37,966 bases of DNA from Anaerolineales bacterium. GTDB lineage: Bacteria; Chloroflexota; Anaerolineae; Anaerolineales; DRMV01. Position numbers and translations under genes: made by a program. Positions 24,250-30,829 of this stretch are shown here, piece by piece (the stretch's first letter is position 1; every line of letters starts with the position of its first letter). The DNA is taken from positions 1 through 37,966 of the forward strand of contig JALUXH010000211.1 in the NCBI GenBank assembly GCA_027019065.1, given 5' to 3'. The notes under the pieces were generated by a model. It had not been told where the DNA came from and ran no database searches. It worked only from the letters and a program-made list of their open reading frames with translations.

Positions 24250-24657
24250 ATGTTTTCCCTCTTAAGCGCCGTGCCCACTGAAAGCGACGACCCGGAAGGG
24301 GCGTGGCTGATTGACATCCGGTGGAAGCATTACCCGGCCGCATGGCGCCCTCCGACCGATGTTTTTGAAACCCCCGAAGCCATCATCGTGCGCATGGAAA
24401 TCGCCGGCATGCACACCGACGATTTCCGCCTCTCATTAGAAGCCCAAACGCTGGTCATCAGCGGCACCCGCCGCGACCCCGACCTCGGCTCGGCCTACCA
24501 CCGCCTGGAAATCCCCTTTGGGCAGTTCCAGGTTACGGTTACGCTCCCCGCGCCGATAGAAGAAGCCGAAGTGGAAGCCGAATACCGCGACGGCTTCCTG
24601 CGCATTCGCCTGCCCAAACGGCGCGCCCACACCGTCGCCATTCATCCCGGCCAATGA
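24250..24657 (+). CDS. Hsp20/alpha-crystallin small heat shock protein
   Basis: [56 protein letters not shown]. Confidence 0.92.
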
Positions 24658-24680
24658 CCTTACCTCCGAGGAGAACACCG

Positions 24681-27278
24681 ATGCCCGCATCGCGCTGGCA
24701 CATGGGTTGGGAAGACATCGCCCAATGGCTTGAAGAAGATGCGGCCTGGGAACAGGCCGTGCTTCCCTTTTTGCACCGCATTCTCGGCGGCAACCAGGGT
24801 GAAGAAGCCGCCCCTCCCCCCGACGAACAGCCCCAACCGCCCGAACCCCAGGCGCCGGAAACCCTTGAAATTCCGGTGCTGCCCTTGCGCGGCACGGTCG
24901 TCTACCCCCAAACGGGCACCCCCCTCACCGTGGGGCTGCCGCGGTCCATCCGCCTCGTGGACGACGTGGTGGCAGGCGACCGCCGCCTGGGGCTGGTGGC
25001 TTCCAAAAAGCCCGAACTGGAAGACCCCGCCCCCAACGACCTTTACACCATCGGCACCATCGCCACCATCCACCGCCTGTTCCGCGCCCCCGACGGCACA
25101 GTGCGCCTGCTGGTGCAGGGGCAGCAGCGCATCAAAGTGCTGGAATTCGCCCAAACCGAGCCGTATTTCGTCGCGCGGGTCCAGGTCATTCCCGAAGAAA
25201 CCGAGCAGTCGCTGGAAACCGAAGCCCTGGCGCGGCAGGTGCGCGAACACTTCCAGACCATCGCCGAAATGGTGGCTTCCATCCCCAAAGAACTGGTGGC
25301 CTCGGTGCTCTCACTGGAAGACCCGCTGCAACTGGCCTACACCGTCGCCAACTTCCAGCGCATGAGCCTGGAAGACGCCCAAACCATTCTGGAACTGCAC
25401 TCGGTTACCGAAAAACTGCGCAAACTGCTCGGCATCCTGGCGCACGAAGTAGAAGTGCTTGAACTGGGGCAGAAAATCCAGAACGAGGCGCGCTCCCAGA
25501 TCGAGCAAATGCAGCGGGAATACTTCCTGCGCGAGCAGATGAAAGCCATCAAACGGGAACTCGGGGAAGAAGACGAACAGGCCGCCGAAGCCAGGGAATT
25601 CCGGCAAAAAATTGAAGCCGCGGGCATGCCCGAAGAAGCCAAAAAACAGGCGCTGCGCGAACTTGACCGCCTCGCCCACCTGCCCAGCGCCGCCGCGGAA
25701 TACAGCGTCATCCGCACCTACCTGGACTGGCTGGTTTCCCTCCCGTGGAGCAAACTTACCGAAGATCACTTAGACCTCCACCACGCCCAGGAAGTGCTGG
25801 ATAAAGACCACTACGGCCTGAAAGACGTCAAAGACCGCATTCTGGAATACCTTGCGGTGCGCAAACTGCGCCTGGAACGCAAAGAAGCGCTGGAAGCCCG
25901 CGTGCCCGACGACGCCATCCGCCACGACCGGGAAGGCGCCATCCTGTGCTTCATCGGGCCGCCGGGGGTGGGCAAAACCTCGCTGGGGCGCTCCATTGCC
26001 CGCGCCATGGGGCGGGAATTCGTGCGCATTTCCCTGGGCGGCGTGCGCGACGAAGCCGAAATCCGCGGCCACCGCCGCACCTACATCGGCGCCATGCCGG
26101 GGCGCATCATCCAGGCGCTGCGACGCGTGGGCACCCGCAACCCCGTTTTTATGTTAGACGAGGTGGATAAACTGGTCTTTGACTTCCACGGCGACCCGGC
26201 CTCCGCCCTGCTGGAAGTGCTTGACCCCGAGCAAAACGCCGAATTCCGCGACCATTACCTTGAAGTGGCCTTTGACCTCTCGCAGGTGCTTTTCATCACC
26301 ACCGCCAACTACCTGGACAACATCCCCGCCCCCCTGCGCGACCGGATGGAAATCATCCCAATCTCGGGGTACACCGAAAACGAAAAGGTGGAAATCGCCA
26401 AAGGCTACCTCATCCCGCGGCAGGTGCACGAAAACGGGCTCTTCCCCGAAGAAATCGCCTTCACCGACGACGCCCTGCGCACCATCATCCGCGCCTACAC
26501 CCGCGAAGCCGGCGTGCGCAACTTAGAGCGGGAAATCGGGAAAATCTGCCGCAAAGTGGTGCGCCAGATCGCCGAGGGCAAGGCAACAGCAGTGGAAATC
26601 ACCCCCGAAAAAGCGCGCGAGTTCCTGGGGCGGCAACGCTATTACGGGCTGGAAGAAGTCGCCCGGCGCGTCGCCATCCCCGGGGTCGCCATCGGCCTCG
26701 CGTGGACCCCCGCAGGCGGCGACATCCTTTTCATTGAAGCGACCAAAATGCCCGGCAGCAAAGGGTTCATTCTGACGGGCTCGTTGGGTGAAGTGATGCA
26801 GGAATCGGCGCGCGCGGCGCTTTCCTTCGTGCGCTCCCGCGCCGCGGAATGGGGCATTCCCGAAGACTTCTTTGAAAAAACCGACATTCACCTGCACGTG
26901 CCCGCGGGGGCACAGCCCAAAGACGGCCCCTCTGCAGGCGTCACCATCGTCACCGCCCTGGTTTCCCTGCTGACCGGCCGCACGGTGAAACCCGATGTAG
27001 GCATGACGGGCGAAGTCACCCTGCGCGGGCAAGTGCTGCCGGTCGGCGGCATCAAAGAAAAAGTGCTCGCCGCCCACCGCGCCGGGCTGAAAACCGTCAT
27101 CCTGCCCAAACGCAACCAGGCCGACCTGGAAGACCTGCCCGAAGAAGTGCGCGCCGCCATCCAATTCATCTTTGCCGAAACCGTCGACGATGTGCTCAAC
27201 GCCGCCCTGCCTGCCGCCGGCGAAACGCCCCCCGCCGCACCCGCCGATGCTTCGCAAGGAGACGCTCCCCATGGCTAA
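24681..27278 (+). CDS. lon: ATP-dependent Lon protease
   Basis: [15 protein letters not shown] Walker [11 protein letters not shown] Walker [11 protein letters not shown] catalytic Ser, [14 protein letters not shown] catalytic Lys. Start 24681 after GAGGAG preferred over 24654. Confidence 0.96.
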
Positions 27279-27633
27279 AATCATGCTGGTGGAAGACGAC
27301 CACACCATGCGTTCCCTCCTCAAAACCCTGCTGGAAATGGAGGGCTTTGAAGTGGTCTTTGGGGGAGGGCAGGCAGCCGCCTTGCTTGAAAACCTCCACA
27401 AACACAAACCCGACCTGCTGGTGATGGACGTGCACCTTGCCGGCGGCATCAACGGCATGGATCTGCTGCATTCCATTCGCCAGGATGATGAACTGAAACA
27501 TACCCGCGTGGTGATGACCTCGGGGATGAACTACGACGAGGCTGCGCTGGCCGCAGGCGCCGACGGCTTCCTGCAAAAGCCTTATATGGTTGACGACCTG
27601 CTGCACCTGTTGCGCCAGGTGTTGGCGCAATAA
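27271..27633 (+). CDS. Stand-alone response regulator receiver
   Basis: [45 protein letters not shown]. Overlaps the lon 3' end. Confidence 0.9.
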
Positions 27634-27686: not shown

Positions 27687-29429
27687 GTGGCACGCAAACG
27701 CTCGCCCAAAGGGCGCTGGTACGTGATGGATTTGCACCTCCACACCCCCGCATCCAGCGACTACCAGCAGCCAGAAATCACTTACCTTGACATTCTCCGC
27801 CAGGCAGAAGCCCGCGGCGTGGACATCATCGCCTTTGCCGACCACAACACCGTGGCCGGCTATCGGAAAATGCAAGAAGAGCTCCGGCAGCTGGAACTGC
27901 TGGAACAGTTAGACCGCCTGATTCCCGAAGAAAAAGCGCGGCTGGAAGAATACCGCCGCCTGCTGAAGAAAATTCTGGTGCTGCCCGGCTTTGAACTCAC
28001 CGCAACGCTGGGTTTCCACATTTTGGGCATCTTCCCGCCCGAAAAGCCCGTGCGGGAAATAGAACACCTGCTGCTCACCCTCAACATCCCGCCCGAAAAA
28101 CTGGATCAGGGTTCGGCTACCGTAGGGGCAACCAGCGACGTGCTCACCGCCTACCGGCTGATTGACGAAGCCGGAGGGCTGGCCATTGCCGCCCACGCCA
28201 ATTCCAGCAACGGCGTGGCCGCCCGCAATGTGCCGGGGCAAACCAAAATTTCTTACACCCAAGACCCGCACCTGCACGCGCTGGAAGTTACCGACCTGGA
28301 AAAGAGAGGCCGCCACACCACCGCGGCGTTCTTCAACGGCACCAAACCCGAATACCCGCGCCGGATGCACTGCATTCAAGGCTCCGACGCCCACCGGCTC
28401 ATCGGCGACGGGCGCAACCCGGGCGTAGGCGACCGCACCACCGAGGTGCTGCTGCCCGAAGTCAGTTTTCAGGCGCTGAAAGAACTTTTTCTGAGCAACG
28501 ACTTTGCCCGCCACCGCCCCCACCGCCACAAGGAAGCCCCCCAGGAAGACTTCATCCAGCAGGCCCGCGAAGAAGGCGCCAACCTGATTCAGGCCTTCCA
28601 CGAGCGCATGACCGTGCGCGGGGGGCGGCTGTATGCCATCATCGCCGACGTGTGCGCCTTCGCCAACACCAACGGCGGCACGCTCTACATCGGCCTGAGC
28701 GACGACCCCAAGCAGCCCCCGGCCGGCCTTGACAACCCCGACCAGGCCGCGGCCGAACTGGCAAAACAGATTTCCGAACGCATCATCCCGCCGCTGGAAG
28801 TTACCATTGATACCCACGAAACGCAGGGCAAAAAAGTGCTTCGGGTGCTGGTGCCGCGGGGCAGCGAGCCCCCCTACGCGGTAGACGGCAGCAAAATCTA
28901 CATCCGCGCCGAAGCCGAAACCGGCCTTGCCGTGCGCGATGAAATCGTGGACCTGGTGCTGCGCGGCCTGCGGGAAAAGGAAGCCGCCGCCGCGCCCGCC
29001 AAAACCGAAACCGGCCAGCCGCGGCACGCGACCATCCGCCCCGCGCCGGTAGACGAAGTGCCGCCCCTGCCCAAAGACGCCCCTCGCACCGGTGTAGAAG
29101 TGGTCTCGGTCATGGAACGCGACGGCACCCAATACTACACCGTGCGCGACCTGCGCAACGGCAATGTGGTCAAAAACGTCACCACCTCATCGGCGCGCCG
29201 CCTGTGGCATTACGCCATCAGCCGCTATGCCAAATTGCCCGCCGACCTCGGCAAAGTGCGCGGCATCCACTGGGAAGGCGACCGCGGCGTGATGCGGAAA
29301 TACAAACAAGGCAAACAGTGGCACTTTGACCTGGTGCAGCACACGCCCGAAGGCAACCGCCTCTTCTTCGGCGTTACCGAAGACGGCCTCACCGAACCAT
29401 GGAAGGCGGTGGTGGGGTTGGAGGAATAG
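27687..29429 (+). CDS. PHP phosphoesterase domain fused to AlbA_2/Schlafen-like domain
   Basis: PHP motifs [40 protein letters not shown]; AlbA_2-like [26 protein letters not shown]...IPPLEVTI...[10 protein letters not shown]. Confidence 0.82.
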
Positions 29430-29430
29430 C

Positions 29431-29520
29431 ATGGGCAAAAAGCAGCAAGTCATTTCCCGCCTCTTTCAGAAGTGCCAGCAGCGCGGCGAGATGCCGGGGC
29501 TAACACAGCCGACCCCATGA
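29431..29520 (+). pseudogene. 29-codon stub ORF, candidate remnant of a restriction-enzyme-like N-terminus
   Basis: MGKKQQVISRLFQKCQQRGEMPGLTQPTP* between the PHP gene and methyltransferase, overlapping the methyltransferase start. Confidence 0.3.
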
Positions 29521-30386
29521 GTGTGTACTCCACCGAGCAATTCGTTGACACGGTTTATCTGGGCGATGTGCTGGAATTGCTGGCGCAGTTGCCCGACAAA
29601 AGCGTAGATATGGTCTATGGCGACCCCGATTACAACGTTGGCGTCAAATACGAAGGCAAAAGTTACACGCGCAAATTTGACGAATACATTGATTGGTACA
29701 TTCGCCTCGCGAAAGAGTCGTTACGCGTTCTCAAAGACGACGGCAACCTCTTTCTCATCAATTACCCCAAGCAAAATGCCTATTTGCGGGTGCGCTATCT
29801 CGATGAAGCCTGCTATGAAGTGCAAGATTACGTCTGGATTTACAACACCAACATCGGGCATTCCCCCCGCCGCTTCACCACCGCCCACCGCAGCGTGTTG
29901 CACGCCCGCAAGACCCGCCATAACCGCTTCTACAAAGACCAGGTTGCTGTACCTTACCAAAACCCCAACGACAAGCGCATCAGGCAGCGCATCGCGCAGG
30001 GTTCCAAAGGCCGCATGCCCTACAGTTGGTTTTACTTTGACCTGGTGAAAAATGTCAGCCACGAAAAAACCAAACACCCCTGCCAGATCCCTCAAGGGCT
30101 CTACGAAATGCTCCTCAAAGCCAGCACCCGGCCCGGCGACATCGCGCTCATCCTGTTCGGCGGCAGCGGCTCCGAAATTGAAGTAACCCGCCGGTTAGGG
30201 CGGCATTTCATTTCTGCCGAGATCGACCCCGAATACCATCGCCTCATCATGGAAAGGCTAAAAACAGGCACTGTGCCTGCCGACTTCAAACTACGAGTTC
30301 CTCAGCGCACATCCAAACCCCTTCAACAACCTCGACTACTGGAAGCAGCCGAGAAGTACTCCATCAACGAAGCAAAGCCATCATGA
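29517..30386 (+). CDS. DNA methyltransferase, beta-class (N6-adenine or N4-cytosine)
   Basis: Motif IV-like YGDPDYNVG near the N-terminus; LILFGGSGSEIEVTRRLGRHFISAEIDPEYH (motif I) near the C-terminus. Confidence 0.88.
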   Translation: MSVYSTEQFVDTVYLGDVLELLAQLPDKSVDMVYGDPDYNVGVKYEGKSYTRKFDEYIDWYIRLAKESLRVLKDDGNLFLINYPKQNAYLRVRYLDEACYEVQDYVWIYNTNIGHSPRRFTTAHRSVLHARKTRHNRFYKDQVAVPYQNPNDKRIRQRIAQGSKGRMPYSWFYFDLVKNVSHEKTKHPCQIPQGLYEMLLKASTRPGDIALILFGGSGSEIEVTRRLGRHFISAEIDPEYHRLIMERLKTGTVPADFKLRVPQRTSKPLQQPRLLEAAEKYSINEAKPS

Positions 30387-30829
30387 ATTACACCCTCCGC
30401 ACTTTCCGCTTTCCTGAAGATTACCCCGCCGTCTACAACCTGTGGGCCAACGCCGGGCCGGGCATCCAGTTGCGGGTTTCCGACGAACCGGAAGAGATCG
30501 CCAAAAAGGTTGCCCACGACCCCGACCTGTTCGTCGTTGCCGAAAACGAAAACGGCGAGATTATCGGCGCGGTGATGGCCGGGTTTGATGGGCGGCGCGG
30601 GCTGATTTATCACCTCGCCGTGGATGCCAACTACCGCCAGCACGGCCTCGGCACCGCCCTGATGGACGAAATCGAAAAACGCCTGCGCGCCAAAGGCTGC
30701 CTGCGCGCTTACCTCATGGTCGTGCCCAGCGAAAAAGAAGTGCTGGCTTTCTACCGCAAACGCGGCTGGGAAAACCTCCCCGTCATCACCCTCGCCAAAA
30801 ACCTCACCTCTGACCATCCGACCAGTTGA
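30383..30829 (+). CDS. GNAT family N-acetyltransferase
   Basis: LIYHLAVDANYRQHGLGTALMDEIEKRL, FYRKRGWE; ATGA overlap with the methyltransferase. Confidence 0.88.
   Translation: MNYTLRTFRFPEDYPAVYNLWANAGPGIQLRVSDEPEEIAKKVAHDPDLFVVAENENGEIIGAVMAGFDGRRGLIYHLAVDANYRQHGLGTALMDEIEKRLRAKGCLRAYLMVVPSEKEVLAFYRKRGWENLPVITLAKNLTSDHPTS

Follow-up and report, generated by a model that had tools for sequence, protein, structure and literature searches.

A Chloroflexota PHP-AlbA_2 gene and a restriction-modification remnant as probably independent neighbours in an Anaerolineales genome

The window analysed here is a contig of 37,966 nucleotides (C211) from an Anaerolineales draft genome (G000; 2.48 Mb, 277 contigs, 96.5% complete). 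It carries a gene for a 580-aa protein with a PHP and an AlbA_2 domain (PHP-AlbA_2), followed after one short ORF by a DNA methyltransferase gene. We consider it very probable that these are two independent units, a Chloroflexota PHP-AlbA_2 gene and an inserted restriction-modification remnant with an orphan methyltransferase. A preliminary description had proposed a PHP-AlbA and methyltransferase defence locus, with the alternative that the PHP gene should be grouped with the lon operon and the methyltransferase is an unrelated arrival. Synteny and an empty site in sibling genomes bore out the alternative. Its term "remnant" fits the methyltransferase half, where the endonuclease is reduced to 21 codons, and not the PHP-AlbA_2 half. 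A supposed new defence system thus turns out to be a false lead, and the locus illustrates how a fresh insertion and a deletion scar can mimic a two-gene operon. The features are as follows.

24250-24657, + strand: hsp20, opening the conserved hsp20-lon-receiver-PHP block (Pfam HSP20, E 1e-14; synteny in siblings)
24654-27278, + strand: lon (endopeptidase La), 874 aa (TIGR00763, E 2e-291)
27271-27633, + strand: stand-alone receiver (response regulator) domain protein (Pfam Response_reg, E 1e-22)
27687-29429, + strand: PHP-AlbA_2 gene, ORF with GTG start, 580 aa
29430-30382 (approximate): DNA present here and absent from siblings (junction comparison with G001, G002 and G004)
29432-29521, + strand: stub ORF, 29 codons and stop, overlapping the methyltransferase start in ATGA
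29432-29494, + strand: 5' end (21 codons) of a lost DUF6996/DUF6997 restriction endonuclease, MGKKQQVISRLFQKCQQRGEM, matching N-termini of methyltransferase-adjacent endonucleases elsewhere
29495-29521, + strand: junction tail of the stub, PGLTQPTP-stop, read from the sequence; the stop overlaps the methyltransferase ATG
29517-30386, + strand: beta-class DNA methyltransferase, 289 aa (Pfam N6_N4_Mtase, E 1e-34; PADLOC MTase_II PDLC03337, E 3e-132)
30383-30829, + strand: GNAT acetyltransferase, the usual downstream neighbour of the PHP gene (Pfam Acetyltransf_1, E 3e-18; synteny)

The insertion between the PHP and acetyltransferase genes

Compared base by base, the junction in the sibling genomes G001, G002 and G004 has the acetyltransferase start directly after the PHP stop codon, whereas about 950 bp separate the two in this genome. 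The insert has a G+C content of 54%, the genes on either side 60-63%. Its flanks both have orthologous counterparts in the siblings, so that binning does not account for the insertion; a local misassembly, an assembly variant or a mixture of strains may nevertheless affect 29432-29521 in this draft assembly. No orthologue of the methyltransferase was found in 17 genomes of the family, in which the best matches reached 31-37%, and no relative of it was found near any of the 41 PHP-AlbA_2 loci examined. The methyltransferase is therefore an arrival in this one genome.

It could be argued that PHP-AlbA_2 and the methyltransferase form one defence system, in which the methyltransferase marks self and the PHP nuclease cuts unmarked DNA. 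The two genes are adjacent, on the same strand and nearly overlapping, and the PHP domain is nearest to those of TrlF and Ppl, the latter being an anti-phage protein by its NCBIfam name. However, none of the 41 homologues lies beside this methyltransferase, and the siblings show the empty site. PHP-AlbA_2 is also missing from 48 of 50 genomes from many phyla that were picked for carrying the methyltransferase, the two exceptions both being Anaerolineae. In addition, the methyltransferase has a partner of its own, another endonuclease, whose 5' end is still present. A joint system is very improbable on these grounds, and as an inherited system it is refuted by the empty site and the absence at 41 loci.

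Small mobile units have entered the PHP-AlbA_2/acetyltransferase junction on at least two occasions. Two genomes from another genus of the family have a different small cassette in this gap, on the opposite strand (L022:5335-5990 and L024:7700-8365), which on reading of its sequence resembles a toxin-antitoxin pair of the DinJ-YafQ type.

The stub and the orphan methyltransferase

The order of a stub ORF and then a methyltransferase, as first described, is real, and so are the genes, but the stub proved to be an endonuclease remnant and the start of the methyltransferase is better placed at 29517. This ATG (289 aa) is the most likely start, rather than the GTG at 29472. The reading frame is intact and contains the motifs DPDY and FGGSGSE, and 102 of the 103 positions that are conserved in relatives are kept (alignment of 81 sequences). 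Relatives at 60-78% identity are spread over many phyla, and one of them, phiLo_15, is carried by the Thermus phage phiLo (75% identity).

In the nearest relatives, an intact DUF6996/DUF6997 partner of 255-290 aa is encoded directly upstream of the methyltransferase. Among 74 methyltransferase loci with enough upstream sequence, a clear DUF6996/DUF6997 ORF was found in 24, and in 17 more there was related sequence, either full length or fragmentary; the other 33 lack DUF6996/DUF6997 upstream, several having a different ORF there. The partner proteins share an invariant D169...E182-x-K184, a PD-(D/E)XK signature, and match a PADLOC type II endonuclease model. From this motif and the gene order, we infer that they are PD-(D/E)XK restriction endonucleases.

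The first 21 codons of the stub (MGKKQQVISRLFQKCQQRGEM) are 67% identical over 18 residues to the partner at L029. In a position matrix built from 23 partners the stub scores 45.1 bits, within the 37-56 bits of the partners themselves, while the maximum of 100,000 shuffles was 13.3 and the next best 20-mer in six frames of the window scored -1.1. About 240 codons of the endonuclease gene thus appear to be missing here. DUF6997 was not found elsewhere in this genome, in a search whose positive controls worked. It is scarcely credible that the short stub ORF arose by chance and that the methyltransferase came in on its own: only 21 residues are left to judge by, but the match is strong, it has the correct place, strand and order, the nearest relatives have the intact partner upstream, and comparable stubs occur elsewhere. 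At L055:4851-4968 an endonuclease stub of fewer than 40 codons immediately precedes the methyltransferase. At L040 (upstream of 5001) only the 3' end of the endonuclease gene remains, and at L072 (upstream of 4983) the gene has an internal deletion. The neighbouring methyltransferase is intact at all three loci. These remnants indicate repeated, and suggest frequent, loss of the DUF6996/DUF6997 endonuclease in the family.

We propose that 29432-30386 derives from a type II restriction-modification unit that would have been acquired horizontally as a pair and inserted between the PHP and acetyltransferase genes. A deletion would then have cut the endonuclease gene back to 21 codons. The methyltransferase, intact but orphaned, probably still methylates its own site but cannot restrict. 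Since the PHP gene has GGAGGA at its end, with the stub frame just behind, and this frame overlaps the methyltransferase start in ATGA, the stub probably serves translational coupling of the methyltransferase to the PHP operon. Compared to DUF6996/DUF6997 type II restriction-modification systems such as phiLo_14/phiLo_15 of the Thermus phage, the window has the same methyltransferase family, preceded as in those systems by the first 21 endonuclease codons, but the endonuclease gene is otherwise deleted and the methyltransferase alone is left. Orphan (solitary) DNA methyltransferases, reviewed in PMC12707154, are likewise without a partner. The one in the window differs from them in that its deletion scar is still readable and in that it occurs in one genome only, without conservation in the lineage. 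It would therefore be a clean case of a restriction-modification system turning into an orphan methyltransferase.

Other arrangements were observed upstream of related methyltransferases. A second type of partner ORF, about 175-230 aa with the motif IKGxLxRHEIVRKVVNTFI and unrelated to DUF6996/DUF6997, lies directly upstream at L046, L047, L049, L056, L058, L059, L061, L063 and similar loci. The one at L058 had no Pfam or PADLOC match, and an alternative endonuclease is possible. A third type of about 275-280 aa is found upstream at L096 and L103, the latter having no Pfam match. In the sibling G001, a Dam-like methyltransferase is followed by a 443-aa DUF6997 protein, a distant relative (L183:3459-5846), which is apparently another complete restriction-modification system, different from that of the window.

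Domains and residues of PHP-AlbA_2

The 580-aa protein consists of three parts.

Residues ~10-273: PHP domain
Residues 318-412: SLFN_AlbA_2 domain
Residues ~450-580: unnamed C-terminal module

The presence of a full PHP motif set and an AlbA_2-like domain, reported in the preliminary description, was confirmed by residues as well as by Pfam and NCBIfam matches. The Pfam PHP match (residues 15-70, E 6e-4) is under the curated cut-off for this protein taken singly; both the PHP and the AlbA_2 domain were matched by 28 of 28 aligned homologues. Of the PHP-bearing NCBIfam models, TrlF (E 2e-28) and Ppl (E 6e-26) cover residues 10-273; both matches lie far under the family cut-offs and end at model position 236-268 of 882-944. 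The Spaf_1101 model is also related to this PHP domain, and weaker NCBIfam matches are to nucleoside bisphosphate and cyclic phosphate phosphatases. All nine expected PHP metal ligands are present (H17, H19, D25, H53, E103, H111, H170, D234 and H236). In alignments of 28-40 homologues, the motif residues including D52 are invariant or nearly so (D25 nearly), which makes an active PHP site probable.

Among characterised PHP domains, that of Ppl is nearest; it has been described as a single-strand DNA 3'-5' exonuclease under the control of an NTPase domain (PMC12904381). PHP-AlbA_2 shares the N-terminal PHP domain and its metal ligands with the TrlF AAA-like ATPases (NF045780) and the anti-phage protein Ppl (NF042955), but it lacks their large AAA/SMC-like ATPase domain and has the AlbA_2 domain and the C-terminal module instead. 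No Walker A motif and no ATPase or NTPase domain were found in it. Because it is without the NTPase, PHP-AlbA_2 is not a Ppl.

The SLFN_AlbA_2 match (Pfam, E 3e-19) begins at profile position 20. Acidic residues of the Schlafen core are catalytic in active members. In 40 aligned homologues, the E..EFK stretch of active Schlafen domains is absent from the segment preceding the match, and the acidic position that follows the GG..IG strand shows no conservation. PHP-AlbA_2 thus resembles SLFN11, SLFN12, CbCash and other Schlafen/SLFN_AlbA_2 proteins in the sequence-profile match, but differs from these three in that the E..EFK-bearing N-terminal stretch is replaced and the acidic residue is not conserved. 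For these reasons binding is a likelier function of the domain than nuclease activity. In its known members the AlbA_2 fold binds nucleic acid.

The favoured reading of these comparisons is that PHP-AlbA_2 would be a PHP-type nucleic-acid phosphodiesterase. Its PHP domain most likely hydrolyses nucleic-acid phosphodiester bonds, like the related PHP domain of Ppl, and its AlbA_2 domain would bind nucleic acid. A small-molecule phosphoesterase acting on nucleotides or sugar phosphates, with a structural AlbA_2 domain, is rather unlikely. Several PHP families act on nucleotides, including those behind the weaker matches noted above, but the best PHP matches are TrlF and Ppl, and nucleic-acid binding by the AlbA_2 fold also speaks against it.

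The extra C-terminal region noticed at the outset is indeed a conserved module, and it occurs repeated in longer homologues of 700-860 aa. No Pfam family matched it in a scan of 28 aligned homologues. Structure prediction without an alignment was of low confidence (pLDDT 36 for the full length, 46 for this module).

Distribution and the lon neighbourhood

PHP-AlbA_2 was found in 8 of 18 family genomes and in 60 of 400 Chloroflexota genomes, with one match in each except for one genome with two partial matches side by side. Synteny around it is conserved, with no methyltransferase, in seven family genomes. Of the 41 loci examined, 18 have lon and 12 have the receiver gene upstream, and at 12 an acetyltransferase or moaB gene follows downstream. 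The PHP-AlbA_2 gene usually stands within an hsp20-lon-(receiver)-PHP-(GNAT)-moaB block in this class and its relatives. The neighbours are variable at the other loci, mainly in lineages with longer proteins, and the linkage to lon is absent in Chloroflexota lineages with longer homologues; a Lon-related role is therefore not general. The preliminary description had set in advance that its proposal would fall if homologues always lay next to lon or receiver genes and never near methyltransferases or defence genes. A relative of the window's methyltransferase was never nearby at the 41 loci, and the association with lon was partial.

Pairwise distances of PHP-AlbA_2 correlate with those of Lon (Mantel r 0.93, 14 loci, 0/5000 permutations), as expected under shared descent. 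No full-length relative was found on the plasmid or phage records searched, and the viral contigs scanned with the PHP-AlbA_2 alignment contained only weak relatives, matching over the PHP part (25-30%). Homologues had been expected to recur beside defence or methyltransferase genes, an expectation that failed at these loci, since no recurrent defence family was found among 117 neighbouring proteins. The few PADLOC matches among the neighbours (kinase-type PD-T4-6 and similar) were non-recurrent and were discounted as matches to kinases in general. Literature searches on the PHP-AlbA_2 combination, on TrlF with PHP and on DUF6997 returned nothing useful. PHP-AlbA_2 is an old resident chromosomal gene of Chloroflexota, mostly single copy and uncharacterised.

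These data also bear on the idea that PHP-AlbA_2 alone, independent of the methyltransferase, is a Ppl-like single-gene system against phages or nucleic-acid damage. Its PHP domain is related to the TrlF, Ppl and Spaf_1101 models, Ppl has been described as a single-gene 3'-5' exonuclease defence (PMC12904381), and Schlafen domains occur in defence (PMC12839542). On the other hand, the gene is single copy with a fixed operon place and distances that track Lon, it encodes no ATPase, and it has neither recurrent defence neighbours nor full-length relatives on plasmids or phages. We regard such a system as improbable.

As a resident gene, PHP-AlbA_2 is suggested by gene order only to be tied to Lon and Hsp20 in stress. 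A fuller proposal, which we put forward tentatively, is a Chloroflexota-wide nucleic-acid-processing enzyme working with the Hsp20-Lon stress operon, in which the PHP nuclease would be guided by a catalytically dead Schlafen domain. The protein is a conserved PHP-Schlafen fusion that has gone unstudied and is linked to lon in part of the Chloroflexota. Within the same block, the receiver protein (27271-27633) diverges fast, with 47-83% identity within the family compared with 77-93% for Lon.
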